From positions 1-23,007 of the IMG/VR virus record IMGVR_UViG_3300014720_003322: a stretch of DNA of 23,007 bases. One strand, 5' to 3'. The translations under genes and the position numbers were made by a program. Shown here piece by piece: positions 2,705 through 12,071 of the stretch. A model generated the notes under the pieces. The model saw only the letters and a list, made by a program, of their open reading frames with translations, was not told the DNA's origin and did no database searches. Origin of the DNA: a virus. Within the stretch, counting starts at the first letter, position 1. The number at the start of each line of letters is the position of its first letter.

Positions 2705-3145
2705 CTAGACTTTGATCATGGGTGGTCGGTGAGTGTGATAAGTGATCAGGCATCCGTTCTCACCGTCCTCGGACACCTCGATCTGGACCGCCCGCTCGGG
2801 ATAGCGTTCGGCTATCCGTATATATAGGTCATCTGCCATCATCTCGCAACTTTTGTAGTCCAAGGCTAGTGTTCCTGAACTGTAGAGACGTTCCAACCAG
2901 CGTTTGAACTGTATGAACTCTATGTCTCGATCGTTGTGGAACACATCGATCCACACGCGGAAATGGAAAATATGGCGATGCGGATGTGCCAGGAACGAGA
3001 CATCGTACTCATCGCCAGTGGCCAGCTGGGGATTGGTGGCCGCTGCCGGATAGCAGTGGATGCCTTCTTTCCGGAAGGTCACCCAGATCTGGCGGGTAGC
3101 TGACTGAGCGATGCGGTCGATTGTTTCGCGTTGGGATTGGTTCAT
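2705..3145 (-). CDS. QueD / 6-pyruvoyl-tetrahydropterin synthase-like (T-fold) protein
   Basis: The 146-residue protein has the outline of a T-fold pterin synthase. A first strand WVTFRKEGIHCYPAA (residues 21-35) supplies H30 and C31, then HPHRHIFHFRVWIDV (54-68) gives an HxH (H56/H58) where QueD/PTPS enzymes place their other two zinc histidines. DIEFIQFKRWLERL corresponds to the 'DF..LK' helix, LDYKSCEMMADDLY to the 'PT.E..A' helix, and VQIEVSEDGENG (120-131) to the last strand with the catalytic glutamate region. QueD makes 6-carboxy-5,6,7,8-tetrahydropterin, an intermediate of preQ0. A DpdA gene in the same operon makes a 7-deazaguanine role attractive. The divergence is large, so it may be a T-fold relative with another role. 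The start overlaps the upstream radical SAM stop (ATGA) with no clear ribosome binding site. Confidence 0.55.
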   Translation of the reverse strand: MNQSQRETIDRIAQSATRQIWVTFRKEGIHCYPAAATNPQLATGDEYDVSFLAHPHRHIFHFRVWIDVFHNDRDIEFIQFKRWLERLYSSGTLALDYKSCEMMADDLYIRIAERYPERAVQIEVSEDGENGCLITYHTHRPPMIKV

Positions 3146-4281
3146 GTGGGGAGATAGGAGTAGATAGTTGGAAAAATATTGCGTGAATCAAGGTCGCGGG
3201 ACTGATCAAAATAGGTAAGACGCTCCATGATCATGGACAGGTTAGACTCATGCGCGAGGTCATTAATATGCTTGTCAATAAAATCCATGTTCTGTTGATA
3301 GGTATATATCTTGTGATACTTTGGATCGCTCATTCTTGCTTTTACTGCCTGTAAAAAGTCACGTGGCATGTGTTTGAGATGCCATGGCCCAGACCACACG
3401 TCCATGTTGTATGGTAATATACTCACGGGTGTGATGTCAAGTCCTATCTCCAATAGATGATCAATATAGTCCCAGATAGCTAGACCGTTGATGTTTAACC
3501 AGACCAGATTGAACGCTAGGGTATGATTGGGGCGATCCATGCCGGCTAGAGTATGCAAATTTTTTTCAAATACCGACCACTTGCCCGGCCATCTTAAATA
3601 TTCATATTGATCACCAACTGCTTCAGCGCTGATCATCCACTGGACATGCTCAAAATCATTGATTCGGGCAAACACTTCATTGTTTTCGATCTGGCTGAGA
3701 TTGGTATTGCATATGATCTTGCATGCGGGATTGATCTCGGCCAACTGAGACAAGATAAGGACGTTTTCTTTCAGCATCAGCGGCTCACCCCCTGCGAGAT
3801 ATATCTCTTGGAGATTGTGCAGGTCATCCATGACCAAATCAACGAGGTCAGTTTTCAAGGCAGTGATCTTGATCTGTCGGGTTCCATCTATCTGGGCCCA
3901 CAGACTGCTGAGGTCAGAGTTGCAATACACGCAGGCATAGTTGCATGTATTATTCCATCGCAGATCCAGATACTTCAATTTGAAATCATGCACATTTTGG
4001 TAATCTACATGTTCTCGTCCTCCAAACTGCCGTAGGAATCTGTGTTGCAGGCTGGAATCATAATCGTTGTGGCAGGCTTCGCATCCGGCCACTGGCCGAT
4101 TGTCCAGCATGTTCTGTTTGATTTCGATGATCTTTTTGCTTGACAGTATCTGCTTGAGCGACTGCTCATGCACACTACCGAGATTGGCCGAGCCGATACA
4201 ACATAGATCTACCTTGCCATTGGGTTCAAGATAGAATGTCATCCATGGTGCTGGACAGAAACTATCGCGCTGTTTGGTCAT
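3142..4281 (-). CDS. radical SAM protein with N-terminal cysteine cluster (copy 2)
   Basis: The 379-residue protein carries the radical SAM CxxxCxxC motif CNYACVYC (C113, C117, C120), preceded by KYLDLRWNNT, and the SAM-binding GGEP at 164-167. An N-terminal set of cysteines (C9, C27, C28, C67, C70; FCPAPW, LCC, CEAC) probably binds a second iron-sulfur cluster, like a SPASM/twitch auxiliary domain but placed before the core instead of after it. The partner gene immediately upstream has the same architecture. It lies between that copy and the QueD-like gene with ATGA overlaps on both sides. Radical SAM enzymes cleave S-adenosylmethionine to start radical chemistry; the substrate here is unknown. 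It is not a normal QueE, which is shorter with its cluster near the N-terminus. It is visibly richer in A+T than the polymerase region. Confidence 0.85.
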   Translation of the reverse strand: MTKQRDSFCPAPWMTFYLEPNGKVDLCCIGSANLGSVHEQSLKQILSSKKIIEIKQNMLDNRPVAGCEACHNDYDSSLQHRFLRQFGGREHVDYQNVHDFKLKYLDLRWNNTCNYACVYCNSDLSSLWAQIDGTRQIKITALKTDLVDLVMDDLHNLQEIYLAGGEPLMLKENVLILSQLAEINPACKIICNTNLSQIENNEVFARINDFEHVQWMISAEAVGDQYEYLRWPGKWSVFEKNLHTLAGMDRPNHTLAFNLVWLNINGLAIWDYIDHLLEIGLDITPVSILPYNMDVWSGPWHLKHMPRDFLQAVKARMSDPKYHKIYTYQQNMDFIDKHINDLAHESNLSMIMERLTYFDQSRDLDSRNIFPTIYSYLPT

Positions 4282-5492
4282 TCAGGATGGCCATAGATGT
4301 ATTCATACACATGAGGGAAAATAACCCGGCTGTCTTTGGCGCGCTGCTGGTCCAACTGCCGCAAGCGATTCACAGTATGCTCTAAACCAGACCATCGAGG
4401 ATGGAGGGCTGGCAACGGATCTGTCAATGCGTCAAGATAGTTATCTACTCCTCGTATCTGATATGAGCTACGAGCCAGTCTATCTCGTGCTTGATCTTTC
4501 CATTCAAAAGGCATGCGTTGGATGGCAAAAGGTTGGCTGCTTTCGCGATTGTTGTACATGTTGATGTTGATATCGCTGGGTTTTTCTACCACATCTAGTG
4601 CCAACAGATAGTCCACATAGTCCCATAAGGTCATGTGATTGATGTTCATGGCCACCAGATTAAAAGTGATCTGATGTCCTTGATCTCTCAAGGCTGCGAT
4701 ACGTTGGATGTTATGCGTGAAGGTCAACCAATTGCCGGGCCAGCGCACATATTCAAACACATCGCCCATGGTCTCGCCGCTGACCATCCAGCGCACGTTA
4801 GAAAACTTGGTAAGCCGGTCAAACATGGGGTTGTTGTCCAGCATGCTGAGATTGGTGTTGATCTGCAGGGTACATGAGGGATTGACTGCATACAGGTGAT
4901 CTAATATGCTGATATTTTCCTTGATGGCCAAGGGTTCTCCGCCTGCGAAATATATCCAGTCGATATCGGCAAACGAATCAGTAAGATCTTCTCGCATGCT
5001 CTGTTTGTCTTCGCGTGTGGTTTTGACAGTGATAGGTATTAGACCTTGCTGTCGATGATTCTCTTCCGACCATAAGGAACTGTATTGTTCACCGCAATAG
5101 ATACAGGCAAAATTGCAGGTATTGTTCCATCTAAGATCAAGATATTTGAGTTTGGTGTTATCGGGTGATTGATAAAAATCACTGGTAAGATCGGGATCTG
5201 GACTGCGCGCACCACCGATGGGTTGTTGTTCAATGTACTTGTTGTTAAAAAAAGTTTGCATGCGATGCTGCGGATCTTGCCGCCAGCAGGCCACACACCC
5301 CTCTACTCTTTGATTGTCGATCATGCGGGTGCGTATTTCTCGCGCTCGTGGTCCGTCCAGGATCTCTTGTATGGATTGCTCTTTGATGTTGCCCAGGTTG
5401 TTATGGGCTGTACAACAAAAATCTACCGTGCCATCGGTGTGAAGATAGAGAGCGGTCCAGGCAGCTGCGCAGAAATATTCTCGATCAATCAA
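4278..5492 (-). CDS. radical SAM protein with N-terminal cysteine cluster (copy 1)
   Basis: The 404-residue protein is a paralogue of the next gene. N-terminal cysteines C8, C26, C27, C66 and C69 (FCAAAW, FCC, CVAC) form a probable auxiliary iron-sulfur site; the core motif CNFACIYC gives C126, C130 and C133 after KYLDLRWNNT; GGEP is at 184-187; VRWMVSGE follows in the barrel. The start must be TTG at 5490-5492: an in-frame TGA directly precedes it and the next methionine comes after the essential cysteines. GGAG lies nine bases upstream. It overlaps the 170-residue gene by eight bases and the second copy by four. A role in modifying a nucleobase, sugar or peptide is possible; nothing in the sequence selects among these. 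Confidence 0.85.
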   Translation of the reverse strand: MIDREYFCAAAWTALYLHTDGTVDFCCTAHNNLGNIKEQSIQEILDGPRAREIRTRMIDNQRVEGCVACWRQDPQHRMQTFFNNKYIEQQPIGGARSPDPDLTSDFYQSPDNTKLKYLDLRWNNTCNFACIYCGEQYSSLWSEENHRQQGLIPITVKTTREDKQSMREDLTDSFADIDWIYFAGGEPLAIKENISILDHLYAVNPSCTLQINTNLSMLDNNPMFDRLTKFSNVRWMVSGETMGDVFEYVRWPGNWLTFTHNIQRIAALRDQGHQITFNLVAMNINHMTLWDYVDYLLALDVVEKPSDININMYNNRESSQPFAIQRMPFEWKDQARDRLARSSYQIRGVDNYLDALTDPLPALHPRWSGLEHTVNRLRQLDQQRAKDSRVIFPHVYEYIYGHPE

Positions 5493-5997
5493 TCACATGG
5501 TCTCCGTCGTATTTACACCAATCTGTAAACTGGCGCCTGTCCATCAGGTCATGCAAGCGGTGCACCCAGACTCCGGGATTGCTATCAGCGAAATCTCTGT
5601 CATCGATCTTTAGGCAGGTATTGTAGTTCCAGAGTCGGATGTAAGGGACAGGCACCTTGATGATGGGTATGAACCTGTCATTCTCGCACAAGCTGCCTTC
5701 GTGGAACTGTTCCACGTATTCAAACGGTATGTCCAGGCTGCACCAGAGGCCCCGCATGAGGAATGTGGAGATCACGTTCTCCCAGGCCGTATGTTCGTCT
5801 GGAGTACGAGGATGATAGCTGTCGTTGGCGCCAAAGAATATGTGCCGGGTCTCGTAGGTGGACCGAGCCAGCGCGGCCTCTATGGCCTCCTGCTGATGAT
5901 AGCCCACCACGAACAAGGTGGGCCAACCATGCGCTGGCGTGTGTTCTACTTCTCGACCGTAGAAAAAGTCTGCAGATTCGTGTCCGGGCCTATCCAT
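5485..5997 (-). CDS. conserved phage protein, unknown function (170 aa)
   Basis: The 170-residue protein starts MDRPGHESADFFYGREVEHT and contains LFVVGYHQ (28-35), HIFFGANDSYHP, a WCSLDIPFEYVE block, and FIPIIKVPVPYIRLWNYNT followed by LKIDDRDF and SNPGVWVHRLHDLMDR. I recall close homologues with this block order (G-E-T/LFVVG, FGAN, LKIDD.DF, NPGVW.H) in T4-like cyanophages and related marine phages, always uncharacterised. It sits between the DUF465-like gene and the radical SAM pair, overlapping both, so it may belong to the modification pathway. It is soluble, with no signal peptide. Several acidic and histidine residues could bind metal, but I cannot assign a catalytic site. Confidence 0.8.
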   Translation of the reverse strand: MDRPGHESADFFYGREVEHTPAHGWPTLFVVGYHQQEAIEAALARSTYETRHIFFGANDSYHPRTPDEHTAWENVISTFLMRGLWCSLDIPFEYVEQFHEGSLCENDRFIPIIKVPVPYIRLWNYNTCLKIDDRDFADSNPGVWVHRLHDLMDRRQFTDWCKYDGDHVID

Positions 5998-6190
5998 TGT
6001 GCTGTGTGCCTTTGTCGTGTGCCTGTTGCCGGGTTTTTAGTTCGGCCAGCTGATCCCGGATCTGCAGGCGCTGTTTTTTCAAATCGTGAAGATGCGTGTC
6101 GTCAAACACGCCGGTTTTTTCCATGCCGTCGATCTGCTTGTCTAACACAGCATGCATCTGTTCGAGATGCCGTATCCTACCTTCATACAT
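5990..6190 (-). CDS. DUF465 (YdcH-like) small coiled-coil protein
   Basis: The 66-residue protein MYEGRIRHLEQMHAVLDKQI... has the DUF465 pattern: H-L-E...H..LD..I...E, a short FDD linker, then a second helix HDLKKQRLQIRDQLAELK. It should form a helical hairpin. I chose the ATG at 6188-6190 because GGAG lies seven bases before it; a GTG two codons upstream (6196) is less well placed. It overlaps the end of dpdA by eight bases and the 170-residue gene by eight. Family members are common in proteobacteria and phages without known function. Because it is co-translated with DpdA it might be a partner, but that is inference from order only. Confidence 0.8.
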   Translation of the reverse strand: MYEGRIRHLEQMHAVLDKQIDGMEKTGVFDDTHLHDLKKQRLQIRDQLAELKTRQQAHDKGTQHNG

Positions 6191-7709
6191 CAACACTCTC
6201 CTCTAGTGCTTCAAGTTTAGTGGGGTCCAGATCAAGATCTTCTTCCTGGGGTTCGTCGAAATCAAACAGGCTGGTGAACATGGGTCGCGCAGTCCATACC
6301 CGTTTGCCCGTGAAGCCGCGCGTGCCGATGATCCGCTCCCATATCTTGCTGTGCTCATCGATGATGGCCAATGATCGAGAACGATCACGCGCGGCAAACA
6401 CCCGCTCGATCACGCGCCGGGCATCATACACAGGATCATGCGGGTGCACCATCATGTCAGGACAAGTGCCCGAATCATACAGGCGATTGGCCCGTTGCAC
6501 AGCCTCGATGTGCGTCCACACGTTGTGGCCCATGAGCAGGGCATAGCTAAAACTATCCCACGATGTGCGTCCTTCTTTGCCGATCTTGTTGAGATCGCCG
6601 GGCCGGTAGTGACAGATGTCGGATATCTTGAGCCGGGCCGAAATCGGGCTGTCTTCAAACTGTGGGTGGATTCCGTCTTGCATGACAGCGTCTCGGAAGG
6701 ATCGGCTATCAGTGGCATACTTCTTGTCGTCGGCAGTGGGGCTCATGCTGTAGCTCCATTTCTGCCGATTTTCGCAGGCGATAGAGTGGTACAGCTGACC
6801 ATTGGCAGTGGCCAGGAACGGACTTGCGCAGTCAAACGAGATAGTGAAAGCAGGATTGGCATGCTGTCGCACCGCCCTTTGGATATCGGTTAGTAGCACA
6901 GCCCATTCCAGTTTGGATGTGCCTAGGAAGTGCATCCAGTCGTGCGCACCTTCTTGCAAGAGCCCGTCATGTATGAGATGCGTCAGGCGTTTCAATACCA
7001 GATGCACGTCGCACATGTTCTGCCCGCCCATGGCCCAGCCGTTGAAATGATTCTTGTACCGGTGCGGATCGCAGTAGTGTTTCATGAGATCATACCAGTG
7101 ATCGGCCTCGGCATGGTTGGATCCCTGCAACACATTAAGGATCCGGGTCGATCCATATCTATTGGCTATCCAATATTCGTTGTTGTATCGCGTGGCATTG
7201 ACCGCATCATCGTAGCTGTGGATGCCACATAGTTCGCTGGCCTCTCGATCCAAGTAGGTCCAGGTAGGTATGTCCATGGTCATGCCATAGGCCGCGATGC
7301 CCATCTGCCACTCCAGGACCTGGCGGCGCTTTTTCTCTGCTGCCTTATCTTGGGTATCAGCCCACTGTCCAGGCCACACGCCTTTGGCGATCTGGAAACC
7401 ACCGGAGTCGGCCAGCATCACAGTGTTGGCATCGCGATTGCGGACCATGTCCTCTTTTGGGTCTGCTTTCTTGAGATCAAGATTGGCGTGTCCCGCACTG
7501 TACAGGCTCCAGCGATAAGGGAACAGGCCCCGCTGCGGATTCAGCCAGTTCAACTGCTCCATGTCGGGTATGAGGGCAGGCATGCGGCTCTGCTCCACAT
7601 ACACTCCAGACCTCTGCCGACCTACATAGGCGGCATAAAAGCTAGAGATGGCCGGCAGGAAAATGGCATAATCGCCCTGCGCGGCTGTGAGGTCGTGCTG
7701 CTGGATCAC
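6183..7709 (-). CDS. dpdA: DpdA-type 7-deazaguanine DNA transglycosylase
   Basis: The 508-residue protein belongs to the tRNA-guanine transglycosylase (TGT) superfamily in its phage DpdA branch, which swaps guanine in DNA for a 7-deazaguanine such as preQ0. Visible TGT features are LADSGGFQIAKG (99-110) with D101 as the base-binding/acid-base aspartate, MDIPTW (145-150), LNVLQG (191-196), GWAMGGQ (224-230), which corresponds to the GG(L/A)xxGE substrate loop, and ISFDCASPF (290-298), where D293 fits the nucleophile. It starts at GTG (7707-7709), whose TG is shared with the clamp TGA stop. The C-terminal 30 residues are acidic and hold MFTSLFDFDEP (about 477-487), like the clamp-binding tail of T4-family polymerases. 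It sits between clamp and DUF465 genes in one overlapping operon. Confidence 0.85.
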   Translation of the reverse strand: MIQQHDLTAAQGDYAIFLPAISSFYAAYVGRQRSGVYVEQSRMPALIPDMEQLNWLNPQRGLFPYRWSLYSAGHANLDLKKADPKEDMVRNRDANTVMLADSGGFQIAKGVWPGQWADTQDKAAEKKRRQVLEWQMGIAAYGMTMDIPTWTYLDREASELCGIHSYDDAVNATRYNNEYWIANRYGSTRILNVLQGSNHAEADHWYDLMKHYCDPHRYKNHFNGWAMGGQNMCDVHLVLKRLTHLIHDGLLQEGAHDWMHFLGTSKLEWAVLLTDIQRAVRQHANPAFTISFDCASPFLATANGQLYHSIACENRQKWSYSMSPTADDKKYATDSRSFRDAVMQDGIHPQFEDSPISARLKISDICHYRPGDLNKIGKEGRTSWDSFSYALLMGHNVWTHIEAVQRANRLYDSGTCPDMMVHPHDPVYDARRVIERVFAARDRSRSLAIIDEHSKIWERIIGTRGFTGKRVWTARPMFTSLFDFDEPQEEDLDLDPTKLEALEESVDV

Positions 7710-8437
7710 TTGCTCTGTGCTGGTAAGATGTAGTTGTATTCCGCGATGCCCGAGTTCACAGTGATCTGCGCAGCACCGTCATCCGAGATGCGCATGACCT
7801 TGTCGCCTGTGAGATCCATGATCGAGATCACCTGTTTCACTGGCCAAGCCCATGCCCGTTTGAGCGCGCCTGTGCAGCCCGCATGGAAAACGAACTCGCC
7901 TGCGTGTGTAGAGTGATCACCAAAGAAAAACTTGAGGGTATCTTTTTCTGTCCGGGCCTGGAAGGTGTTTTCTTCCGCGTTGGCCTGGGCCTGCATCTTC
8001 AGCCGCTGGATGCCAGCTATCGTGGGTTCGAACTCCACGTGCCAGTTGGCACCACGGAACTTGGCCGTTTTCAGTTTCTCTGCCACGATCTCGCTTGTCA
8101 TGAATCGATAGTCGTTCTCGAAGTCGTGCGTGGCGTTTTCGAAGTGCAGGCCCACTGGGGTGGGCGAGCCGTTGCGTTCTTGTCGCGTGACCGTGATCTC
8201 GGCATTCTCTCGATATTCTTGCAGGTTCAAGAGGATCTTGAGTTTGGCCAGATTGGGCATGCCAAAAGTGCCCATGAACTCGGGCACGGGCTTGAGGAAT
8301 CGTCCCTGCACCACTACCGATTTGTCTTCGGCCAGGCCGTCGATCTGTGTTTCCTTATCACTGCCAGTGATCTTGACGAGATCGATACAGCCAAGGTCAA
8401 AAGTATGTTCTACTAGATCTAAAAGATAGTCTCTCAT
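7706..8437 (-). CDS. 45: DNA polymerase sliding clamp (T4 gp45-like)
   Basis: The 243-residue protein matches T4-like clamps in length and pattern: an N-terminal DLVEHTFDLGCIDLVKI strand-turn-strand block, VVQGRFLKPVPEFMGTFGMPNLAKLKILL (a region characteristic of phage clamps), and C-terminal KQVISIMDLTGDKVMRISDDGAAQITVNSGIAEYNYILPA. It forms a trimeric ring that tethers polymerase and late-transcription factors. The ATG at 8435-8437 is chosen because GGAG lies seven bases upstream; an in-frame TTG four codons earlier lacks support. A TCTAAATA box lies about 34 bases upstream. The stop overlaps the dpdA GTG, linking its expression to DNA modification. Confidence 0.88.
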   Translation of the reverse strand: MRDYLLDLVEHTFDLGCIDLVKITGSDKETQIDGLAEDKSVVVQGRFLKPVPEFMGTFGMPNLAKLKILLNLQEYRENAEITVTRQERNGSPTPVGLHFENATHDFENDYRFMTSEIVAEKLKTAKFRGANWHVEFEPTIAGIQRLKMQAQANAEENTFQARTEKDTLKFFFGDHSTHAGEFVFHAGCTGALKRAWAWPVKQVISIMDLTGDKVMRISDDGAAQITVNSGIAEYNYILPAQSK

Positions 8438-8469: not shown

Positions 8470-9414
8470 TTATTTAGATTTTGCTACGATTTTGGCCAAA
8501 GTTTGTCCTCCCCGCAGGCTGACGAGTTGGCCGGGGCGACGCAGTTCTACCCAGTTGGCAGCTGCATCAAGACGATAGTCCTGCTCGATAACGAAGCCAA
8601 TGGATTCACATATGGCCAGGACCAAGCGGCCGGGAGTGTAGCAGGTGAACGAGCGTTCGGCCAGTTCAACAGCACCCTTACGGTCGCAATCGTTATAGGT
8701 CATGGCCAGCACACCCCCGGGACGCAATCGGTCAAAGATTTCTCGGAGGTATGCGCGCATGATCTCAAATGGTTTGTATTGGAAAAAATTGTAGGCCAGG
8801 CAGAATCCAAACTGTCCTGCTGGCATGTGCTGCATCATGGGCTCGCTATCACTCTCTCGGATGGCATAGTATCTCAAACGGCTTTGATACATATCATTGA
8901 ACTTTTCTTTTGCAGGTTCGAACATGTCATGATTGGTATCTACCACGTAGAGCGGGTCGCACGCTACCATGTGTTCAATCCAATTTTCCAAACCCGGTCG
9001 GATGATCATTCCAGCATAATGATAGTCACAGTGGGCCATCACGCGACTTTTGATGTATTCTCGGCGCTCGTCGGAGATTGGAAATCGTCTTTGCATCACG
9101 TACTCTACCGTATCGCGCTCCATGGCACGCTCGTACCATTGATAACTCTGTGCTAGATACTGTGGCTCCAGAGCCTTTATCTGTTCCAACAGATCGGCTA
9201 GCATGTGATCAAGACCGAGATCAAAATCCTTTGTGGCCATGAGTGCGCGATCCCTGGCATTTTGCAAATCACTTAGATGGTCGGGCAGTTGGCTGGGATT
9301 ACGACCAACAGTCTCTAACATGTCGTCCATCTCTGTATGGATGGCACGTTCAACTGCTGTGGGTCGGAGACTCTCCAGCAGTTCTCGATAGTGGGCCAGT
9401 TCGCTGATCTTCAT
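8470..9414 (-). CDS. SAM-dependent methyltransferase-like protein
   Basis: The 314-residue protein has an N-terminal helical region (about 1-110) and a C-terminal class I methyltransferase-like region. Visible parts are HYAGMIIRPGLENWIEHM followed by CDPLYVVDTNHDMFE (152-166; a Rossmann strand ending in acidic residues that could bind SAM ribose), FGFCLAYNFFQY (203-213), and FDRLRPGGVLAMTYNDCD (227-244; the usual post-motif III LxPGG turn). The start overlaps the polymerase stop (ATGA), so it is translated with it. It could methylate DNA or act on the 7-deazaguanine product. No N6-adenine (DPPY) or cytosine (PC) motif is visible. The C-terminal 20 residues are basic. Confidence 0.7.
   Translation of the reverse strand: MKISELAHYRELLESLRPTAVERAIHTEMDDMLETVGRNPSQLPDHLSDLQNARDRALMATKDFDLGLDHMLADLLEQIKALEPQYLAQSYQWYERAMERDTVEYVMQRRFPISDERREYIKSRVMAHCDYHYAGMIIRPGLENWIEHMVACDPLYVVDTNHDMFEPAKEKFNDMYQSRLRYYAIRESDSEPMMQHMPAGQFGFCLAYNFFQYKPFEIMRAYLREIFDRLRPGGVLAMTYNDCDRKGAVELAERSFTCYTPGRLVLAICESIGFVIEQDYRLDAAANWVELRRPGQLVSLRGGQTLAKIVAKSK
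8471..8478 (-). promoter_or_regulatory. late-type promoter box TCTAAATA for clamp-dpdA
   Basis: On the minus strand the bases read TCTAAATA, seven of eight matches to the T4 late consensus TATAAATA. It overlaps the end of the methyltransferase gene and lies about 34 bases before the clamp start. A transcript starting about six bases downstream of the box would include the GGAG before the clamp ATG. Confidence 0.45.
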
Positions 9415-12071
9415 TGGAAATCAAATAGTGTCTGGAACGTGTTGTTGGTACTGGTGCTTGATGCCAGATCCCAGTCCAGCACACCCAAGAGATTCTCTAT
9501 CTTCTGATCTACCACAGTGGCTTCCATTTCAGCATCATCAAAGGGCAGGTCCCGGAACCACTGGGGCAGGTGCAGTTCGTCCGTAGGATAGGCGATTGAA
9601 GTCCAACCTAAAGCATTGGACTTGAGCTTGCACACGATAGCCTTCATACCGTCCACGATCTGCATGGAATAGTTGTCCGAGTTCATGCGGCGCATGGTGT
9701 TCCAGTTCATGCCAGCTCGCACATGGCCAGGCATGTTAGCGCGACCTTCACGCTCTTCGCGCTTGGCATATTGCGTGAGGTTGTTAATCCTCTTGGGAGA
9801 GCCTTTCTCCCAGCCCGGACGATCAGCGAAAGCGTACTTGAAATCTTTGATCTTCTGCACGATCTCTTCGCGCTCGCTGCCTGTGAGCACATTGTCCAGT
9901 ATCTCGCTCAAGAAGTCCTGGATGATCTTGGGTGTGTCAGACCTCTTGAGATCCAAACCCATGGCCTTGACTTTACCAGGCCGACCATTGATATCCGTGC
10001 GCTTGTTTTCTTTGTCGTAGTAGAGCACAGCATAGCGTTTTTTGGTGATAAACAGACCGCGCGTGGCCACCAGTTCACGGCCACCGCGTATGACCGAGCC
10101 CATTTCCCGGGGACAGTGGAAGGCCTGCTCCATGAATCCAGGAAAGCTCTGGTTGACTTGATCTGCGATCGAATCATACAAGGCCACGCAGGTCTCTTTG
10201 GACCAATCCATCCTGCCGGCCGCTACTTCATCTCGGACGGCCGGCCAAGCAGTGAAATAGCAGCTGTCTGTGTCACCATAGATGATGGCATCGCCCACGT
10301 GATCGTATCGTCCGGTCACACACTCGTTCACATAGGCATCCATGTGCCGGGCGATCGATCGACCGGTTAGCGTGGTCGACTGACCAATGCGCTTGTCAAA
10401 GAATCTGCAACCGGGATTGAGGATGGCACCATAGAGACTGTTCAAGTTGATCTTCTTGACCAATTGCCGCTTGTCCCAATACTCTTCATCCTCTTTGCTG
10501 TCGGCGGCCTTGAGCTTGGCCTGCATGTCTTTGCGTTCGGCATACCAGCGTTTGAGCAGACCTGGGATCACGGCTTCTGTTTCATAGGTGAAGATGGTGC
10601 CGTTGGCCGACAGGATCCAGGGCTGATTGCTATCAAACACCATGCGCCACACTTCTGCGGCTGAATGTACCGACTCATCGCCATCTTGCCAGTCTATGGT
10701 GATCTCTGTGCCACGCTGCTGATCCATCACAGCGGTATATTCCAAGGTGCCGAACAGGCCCTCCCAAGCCGCTGCGAAGCTGGCACCGCCCTGCTGTTTC
10801 TCCCGGATGTAGTGGTCGGTCATGATGGGCCGCAGCTGGCCCACGATAGTCTCGGGTCCCATGTTGAGCGCACGGATAGCCGATGGATAAAGACTGTTGA
10901 TGTCGATAGATCCCACCCAGTCGTGCATGCCTTTCTTGGGATAGGCCACGTAGGCACCTGCGGCCTGCGTTTCCTCATCTGTCAGGCGCTCTCGCCTGAC
11001 AGGCACCACCATGCCGCGCTCGTGAGCTTCGTTGATGATGGCCTGTTCTGTGACCGCCACCGCACCCATGGTCGTAGGTAGGAGCACGGTGTTTTCATGT
11101 GCCAGGGTGTTGGCTAGATCTAGGAAGCGCAGTTTCTTGTCGATAGCTGCCAAGAGTTGCACGTCCTGGCGGTTGTATTCTATAAAGGTCTTCCAGTTCT
11201 GATTGTACAACTGATCCAGCGTGCCTTCGAAAGCGGTCTTTGATCCCAGGTCTTCATACTCGCCGATGGCGTCCAGGCTGTAGCTGTGCCGCTCTTCATA
11301 GGTGTATTTCCTGTAGAGCTGCATGTAGTCTAGATGCACCCGGCCTATGAGGTCAAACGTGATGTTCTCGGCACCGAAGCGTTCAAACGTGCGCTGTTTG
11401 GGCAGCTGGTCCCAGAGACAGAAACGCCGTGTGTCATCTTTTGACAGCACGCGGGTGGTCCTCATGACGGTGTAGGGTATGTCATAGCCCTCGGAGTTCC
11501 AGCCACTCAGCACATCCGCATCCTGTATGAGGTTGAGGAAGGTGTCTAGCAGTTCCGACTCTTCCCACATGACAAAGGTGTTGGAGAACTCGCCTGCGAT
11601 CTCCTGGGCAGTTTCTTTGGACATGTGCCGGGGTGGTCTGACTAGCGTGACCAACTGATCCAACCAGTCCATGTAGACTGATATGGCGGTGATGGCGTTG
11701 AACGGGTCTTCGGGTCGGCTGAAGCCGCGCTCGGGGTCGAAGTCCACTTCGATGTCAAAGAACGCTGTGTTCAGCCGGGGAGCATCCACTCCCTTGTAGT
11801 TTTCCTCCAAGCAGCGGAAGATGGGATTGATGTCAGCCTCGTAGAGATTCTTGCCACGGTTGATGGCCATCTCCTTGCGGAACTCTTTGTTGCTGCGTGT
11901 GCTGAAGCGGGCGACCGGCGTGTTGTAGATCGAGCGGAACTTGCCCCGGGGGTCATCATAGTAGAAAACGAAATTGGCTGCGTGCTCTTCGTAGTAGCGC
12001 TCGCCGTCGCGGCGACCCACGATGTGGATGCGATCGTGATCACGATCAAACAGTGCGTCAATGTAACTCAT
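9411..12071 (-). CDS. 43: family B DNA polymerase (T4 gp43-like)
   Basis: The 886 residues match T4 gp43 in size (898). Exonuclease motifs are FFDIEVD (104-110; D106, E108), GWNSEGYDIPY (190-200; D197) and EYNRQDVQLL (298-307; D303). Polymerase motifs are A, DINSLYPSAIR (390-400; D390); B, KKINLNSLYGAI (539-550); and C, YGDTDSCY (598-605; D600, D602). All catalytic carboxylates are present, so proofreading and synthesis should be active. The protein ends QTLFDFQ, the expected clamp-binding tail. GGGAG lies four bases before the ATG. The leader of about 80 bases after the DsbA-like gene contains a late-type box. The gene is followed with ATGA overlap by the methyltransferase gene. Confidence 0.97.
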   Translation of the reverse strand: MSYIDALFDRDHDRIHIVGRRDGERYYEEHAANFVFYYDDPRGKFRSIYNTPVARFSTRSNKEFRKEMAINRGKNLYEADINPIFRCLEENYKGVDAPRLNTAFFDIEVDFDPERGFSRPEDPFNAITAISVYMDWLDQLVTLVRPPRHMSKETAQEIAGEFSNTFVMWEESELLDTFLNLIQDADVLSGWNSEGYDIPYTVMRTTRVLSKDDTRRFCLWDQLPKQRTFERFGAENITFDLIGRVHLDYMQLYRKYTYEERHSYSLDAIGEYEDLGSKTAFEGTLDQLYNQNWKTFIEYNRQDVQLLAAIDKKLRFLDLANTLAHENTVLLPTTMGAVAVTEQAIINEAHERGMVVPVRRERLTDEETQAAGAYVAYPKKGMHDWVGSIDINSLYPSAIRALNMGPETIVGQLRPIMTDHYIREKQQGGASFAAAWEGLFGTLEYTAVMDQQRGTEITIDWQDGDESVHSAAEVWRMVFDSNQPWILSANGTIFTYETEAVIPGLLKRWYAERKDMQAKLKAADSKEDEEYWDKRQLVKKINLNSLYGAILNPGCRFFDKRIGQSTTLTGRSIARHMDAYVNECVTGRYDHVGDAIIYGDTDSCYFTAWPAVRDEVAAGRMDWSKETCVALYDSIADQVNQSFPGFMEQAFHCPREMGSVIRGGRELVATRGLFITKKRYAVLYYDKENKRTDINGRPGKVKAMGLDLKRSDTPKIIQDFLSEILDNVLTGSEREEIVQKIKDFKYAFADRPGWEKGSPKRINNLTQYAKREEREGRANMPGHVRAGMNWNTMRRMNSDNYSMQIVDGMKAIVCKLKSNALGWTSIAYPTDELHLPQWFRDLPFDDAEMEATVVDQKIENLLGVLDWDLASSTSTNNTFQTLFDFQ

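Follow-up and report, generated by a model that had tools for sequence, protein, structure and literature searches.

The window analysed here, the whole 23,007-nucleotide stretch of DNA, is a 23-kb virus fragment whose minus strand carries genes for a polymerase, a small methyltransferase-like protein, a protein of 243 amino acids and a protein of 508 amino acids, the last two being a predicted sliding clamp and a DpdA-like enzyme (Table 1). Related loci numbered 307, and from these 116 clusters (92% identity) with both C-termini complete were taken, the tree comprising 114; two scans for related loci from divergent seeds found none. The gene order polymerase-clamp-dpdA is kept in 107 of the 116 clusters. 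An overlap between the dpdA start codon and the clamp stop codon, pointed out in the initial annotation, is present in the window at a length of 4 nt, but this overlap is not conserved among relatives, whereas the gene order is. Polymerase genes are split or interrupted at L039, L053, L158 and L234, with frames that end in intein-like sequence and, in PA5oct (L158), a homing endonuclease.

Table 1. Coordinates of genes and sequence features in the window.
Feature	Position	Strand	Basis or remark
Family B DNA polymerase, 886 aa	9411..12071	-	PF00136, 3.9e-36; phrog_262, 4e-191
Polymerase C-terminal FQTLFDFQ, residues 879-886	9414..9437	-	Motif resembled by DpdA
Methyltransferase-like gene, between polymerase and clamp	8470-9414	-	Weak methyltransferase-domain match (PF13649, 0.0012)
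Predicted PCNA-fold sliding clamp, 243 aa	7706..8437	-	phrog_12062; AlphaFold2/Foldseek
Clamp TGA (7706-7708)/dpdA GTG (7707-7709) overlap	7706..7709	-	4 nt, read from the sequence
DpdA-like TGT-fold protein, 508 aa	6183..7709	-	GTG start; codons 7709..6186, stop 6183-6185
Clamp-binding-like DpdA motif MFTSLFDFDEP, M477-P487	6249..6281	-	Conservation; segment pLDDT <50
Motif core F478-x-x-L481-F482-D483	6261-6278	-	F478, L481 and F482 in at least 90% of rows
Conserved DpdA C-terminal helix (LDxLE), about residues 496-504	6198..6224	-	L499, L502 and E503 invariant in A1
Small DUF465 protein	5990-6196		PF04325, 1.9e-12; start overlaps dpdA end
Adjacent radical-SAM/SPASM pair (404 and 379 aa), downstream of dpdA	3142-5492		Related domain order

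Sequence profiles name neither the clamp nor DpdA, so predicted structures were used for both identities. For the 243-residue protein, an AlphaFold2 model made from an alignment of relatives (pLDDT 89.6) has a two-domain PCNA-like fold, and Foldseek returned 481 PDB matches at E<=1e-3, among which the 50 listed are all PCNA (best E 2.7e-11). The protein has no match in Pfam or NCBIfam, and the T4 gp45 profile PF02916 (DNA_PPF) matched neither it nor the proteins of six relatives; its only PHROGs match is phrog_12062 (E 6e-32), a family annotated as being of unknown function. The clamp is of the gp45 type by position and predicted fold only, and the predicted structure gives phrog_12062 a function, as a sliding clamp with the PCNA fold. 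In PA5oct, the gene EST35_0314 (L158, 5912-6658), annotated as a structural protein, lies between the polymerase and the DpdA relative and scores 170 against the clamp profile made here.

The 508-residue protein was modelled in the same way (pLDDT 85.5), and all 15 of its PDB matches at E<1e-3 are TGT enzymes; among viral models, it matches phage TGT/DpdA proteins including DpdA2 of Vibrio phage nt-1 (R9TGF0). The segments DSGGFQ and SFDCASP are invariant in 42 sequences, and with them the TGT active-site elements DSGG[FY]Q (D101-Q106) and FDC, the element of the nucleophilic Asp (F292-D293-C294); the motifs around D101 and D293 presumably correspond to Asp102 and Asp280 of TGT. No TGT or DpdA family in Pfam, PHROGs or NCBIfam matches the protein, but this test does not discriminate, since the validated 9g DpdA and nt-1 DpdA2 likewise have no Pfam match. 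Direct profile comparison of the family with 9g DpdA was unsuccessful, and comparison with nt-1 DpdA2 gave a weak match in which the active-site motifs nevertheless aligned. The initial annotation had called the two proteins gp45 and DpdA; the predicted structures agree with both names, whereas no Pfam, PHROGs or NCBIfam match supplies either. Genes for 7-deazaguanine precursors are absent from the 23-kb window, while genes for FolE (GTP cyclohydrolase I) and QueD/PTPS occur in all 13 relatives, of which three are isolated phages, QueC being weak or absent in most of them; the FolE and QueD/PTPS genes support a DpdA role. The evidence from models and relatives thus supports the reading of this protein as the DpdA of the phage: an enzyme with a TGT fold that would replace guanine in DNA by a 7-deazaguanine, for instance preQ0.

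The TGT domain of the model extends to about residue 463 and is followed by a disordered acidic tail (residues 464-492, pLDDT below 50), inside which lies the segment MFTSLFDFDEP, and then by a short predicted helix containing the LDxLE element (pLDDT about 70); a similar element is found in PA5oct. The segment had been picked out in the initial annotation as a possible clamp tether on account of its likeness to the end of the phage's own polymerase, given there as QTLFDFQ, and to the clamp-binding tail of RB69/T4-type polymerases, of the form SLFDMFDF. Both motifs were recovered from the open reading frames, the polymerase C-terminus reading NTFQTLFDFQ, and RB69 polymerase (PDB 1clq_A, 903 aa), with KKASLFDMF up to residue 901, fits that form. 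Two grounds on which the initial annotation said that its proposal would fall do not apply: the motif lies outside the folded TGT domain and is retained in close and distant homologues. The motif itself has to be revised, as the final F of SLFDF varies in DpdA, and the core common to the DpdA motif and the polymerase end is F-x-x-L-F-[DE]. In the polymerase ends of the 116 clusters, F occupies position 1 in 114, L position 4 in 109, F position 5 in all 116, and D or E position 6 in 90. The matching positions of the DpdA tails hold F or Y, L (in some F or M), F, and D or E; at position 7, where the polymerase has an aromatic residue, DpdA mostly has V, E or T. The canonical eukaryotic PIP box Qxx[ILM]xxFF is not matched, both DpdA and polymerase having F at position 1. 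DpdA displays a trait of sliding-clamp clients, a short motif in a flexible segment that resembles that of the cognate polymerase.

The strict motif is present in 111 of the 114 DpdA clusters on the tree, and the other three carry near matches (FAVHFD, FNVHFD and FHSVMFD); locus L037 is without the motif, with an apparent short deletion. When a score matrix built from polymerase C-termini was applied to the 116 DpdA tails, 94% exceeded the 95th percentile of a background of 1280 other phage protein tails and 54% exceeded its 99th. The position of the motif is variable: it lies about 12 residues past the enzyme domain in 89 tails and at the extreme C-terminus only in 14, while both patterns match in 8, four of which have one motif that is itself terminal and four of which have two separate motifs. 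The tree requires at least 12 changes of the proximal motif and at least 11 of the terminal one. Among independent pairs differing in the proximal motif, five show an opposite change of the terminal motif and none or one a change in the same direction; the sign test is underpowered (median p 0.22). The LDxLE element is kept with an internal motif and lost where the motif is terminal only.

In L234 the proximal motif is gone and DpdA ends QTFESLFEV against NTFESLFEF in its own polymerase; the DpdAs of L206 and L208 end directly in FNNLFDF, and that of L212 in FSNLFEEV. To judge from these sequences, such turnover is the behaviour of a selected linear motif, unlike that of a structural contact or an accident. 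Likeness to the polymerase of the same phage is also seen in Vibrio phage 2.275.O (DpdA NNNDLFGW, polymerase NNTDLFDW) and in PA5oct (DpdA FNSLFDV, polymerase FDSLFGW). Relocation of the motif together with its agreement with the polymerase C-terminus of its own phage constitutes strong, if indirect, evidence that the two proteins share a partner. Three lineages (L065, L209 and L223) have F in place of L at position 4 of polymerase and DpdA alike, which first looked decisive (three of five against six of 109 clusters, Fisher p=0.003); on the tree, however, the count is 3:0 (p=0.25, not significant), with six clusters having F in DpdA only, and this co-variation is kept as supporting evidence only. 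Of the 212 gene families found in six relatives, only those of polymerase and DpdA have a conserved tail motif of this kind in every one of the six genomes. Whole-proteome counts of F..LF are no higher than in shuffled sequences; the argument is accordingly built on conservation and position and not on counts.

A smaller family, phrog_11543, with the end YYEALWD, could be a third clamp client. One such protein is encoded at positions 3415-4167 of L084 (plus strand), and its end, GFRLFG[KR]YY[QE][GA]LWD, is conserved in three genomes.

A wider sample of DpdAs, picked from a ranked list and not exhaustive, brought in phages with beta-type clamps, for which the published clamp-binding consensus is QL(S/D)LF (PMC9690074). 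In phage 9g, dpdA adjoins the genes for a beta-type clamp and a polymerase, and DpdA ends RLQDLFDE. Similarly linked dpdA genes encode proteins ending VMELF (Seurat), IQELF (Iggy, EC151 and R7M), QMELF (PSASB_03), QQGLFV (BcepGomr), DPVLF (Synechococcus phage Yong-L2-223) and EQRLF (Erebus and RHEph06); the DpdA of Dp-1 ends QRRLF, with dnaN three genes downstream. Tails of this kind were found beside unannotated, clamp-sized neighbours in R29Z (IQGLF), 1.207.B (QPGLF) and PSTCR7 (VQELF), and with no clamp within the stretch read in R5C (QVSLF) and BUCT006 (QQELF). As background, a C-terminal [LM]F occurs in about 0.2% of other proteins. Phages with a beta clamp appear to have come to the same principle, with DpdA ending in a beta-type Q-x-x-L-F tail. 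Phosso, whose DpdA ends VEGLF, was considered as a natural clamp swap and dropped, the adjacent 240-aa protein having no clamp match. Vibrio phage nt-1 has a T4-type clamp in its genome, yet its DpdA2 is without a tail motif; the expectation that the motif would be conserved only with T4-type clamps was therefore wrong in both directions, the DpdAs of beta-clamp phages having a clamp-type tail of their own.

DpdB, a ParB-superfamily protein, is often found alongside DpdA (PMC6392294), and the ParB-adjacent DpdAs of Typha, Tinciduntsolum (Rosebush-type), Mufasa8, Quesadilla and Cellulophaga phi3ST:2 have no clamp-type tail. The loci with a DpdA near a ParB-like gene and no such tail are L415, L416, L418, L420 and L426. 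In Megan, both proteins are without a clamp-type tail, and the neighbour shows no ParB domain. Clamp-adjacent and ParB-adjacent DpdAs possibly represent two alternative modes of recruitment. The fuller proposal, in which DpdAs either ride the clamp, by a PCNA-type F-x-x-L-F-[DE] or a beta-type Q-x-x-L-F tail according to the clamp of the phage, and put 7-deazaguanine into replicating DNA, or work with a ParB-like or DpdB-like partner, is one to which we would give an even chance of being right.

As to what the tail of the window DpdA binds, we consider it highly probable that DpdA is a client of the sliding clamp through its F-x-x-L-F-[DE] motif, and the clamp-tether reading of the initial annotation is, on sequence evidence, supported. 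A shared motif indicates a common partner and not its identity, and gene order by itself does not identify that partner either, so that polymerase and DpdA might both bind another protein, such as a single-strand binding protein, a helicase or the clamp loader, and DpdA be recruited to the replisome by a route other than the clamp. This is unlikely, given that T4-type polymerases bind the clamp by their C-terminus (PMC2988020), of which KKASLFDMF in RB69 is an instance, that the clamp gene adjoins dpdA, and that DpdA tails in beta-clamp phages are of the beta-clamp type instead. We regard it as very improbable that the motif instead serves docking or dimerisation within DpdA, its likeness to the polymerase end being coincidental. 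Dimers are the active form of TGT enzymes, and the second conserved element of the tail, the LDxLE helix, may pack on the enzyme; but the motif segment is predicted with pLDDT below 50, it shifts between the proximal site and the C-terminus in several lineages, in a manner that a fixed intramolecular contact would not readily permit, and it matches the residue preferences of the polymerase at four positions. That hydrophobic residues came by chance to stand in an acidic tail and were retained by shared ancestry is scarcely credible, and the turnover data already refute it for the most part: short motifs are common, and a single F..LF occurs proteome-wide at the shuffled rate, but the motif is conserved inside a variable tail, is lost and regained, and the tail scores separate from background.

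As a clamp client, DpdA would hold the PCNA-fold clamp directly by the motif in its disordered tail, probably in the same pocket that receives the polymerase C-terminus, and would thereby stay on the freshly replicated duplex behind the fork, from which we infer a coupling of base modification to the moving replisome. Because the DpdA motif usually is without the last aromatic residue of the polymerase motif, its binding may be weaker and may not displace the polymerase. With a motif weaker than that of the polymerase, and several sites on a trimeric clamp, the two could be present together. The experimentally validated DpdA of phage 9g modifies plasmids in Escherichia coli without the phage clamp (PMC6884629), and tethering would thus not be strictly required, unless the host beta clamp substitutes. 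DpdAs of the Seurat type, like that of 9g, function in laboratory E. coli.

None of the papers in the library searched describes a clamp-bound DpdA. The closest relative of the proposed arrangement is T4 alpha-glucosyltransferase, likewise a phage DNA-modification enzyme on the phage clamp, although it glucosylates hydroxymethylcytosine whereas DpdA exchanges guanine. Sommer and colleagues reportedly found in 2004 that this enzyme binds gp45, and modification concomitant with replication was proposed for it. The pull-down has been repeated, and the share of modification was found to be set mainly by expression and enzymatic activity, not by clamp binding (PMC13216743). The T4/RB69 proteins gp43, gp55 and gp33 resemble DpdA in having a short hydrophobic-acidic clamp epitope on a flexible linker; they are, however, polymerase or transcription factors with a C-terminal epitope, whereas DpdA is a base-exchange enzyme whose motif usually lies about 30 residues from the C-terminus. 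The clamp epitope of a T4 late factor is functional when internal (PMC2988020). Eukaryotic Dnmt1, which likewise modifies bases, carries a PCNA-binding motif and works on newly made DNA (PMC9690074), but it is a methyltransferase of another fold and purpose. The enzymes 9g DpdA and nt-1 DpdA2, which share the TGT fold with the window protein, put 7-deazaguanines in DNA (PMC6884629); 9g DpdA has a beta-type tail and nt-1 DpdA2 no tail motif, and neither has a described link to a clamp.

A clamp-client DpdA would be composed of ordinary parts in a new combination, and is well supported by sequence evolution. A clamp tether would offer a concrete mechanism by which DpdA finds its sites and by which new phage DNA is protected before host nucleases act. 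If true, clamp recruitment would be a convergent strategy of phage DNA-modification enzymes, with DpdA standing beside T4 alpha-glucosyltransferase.
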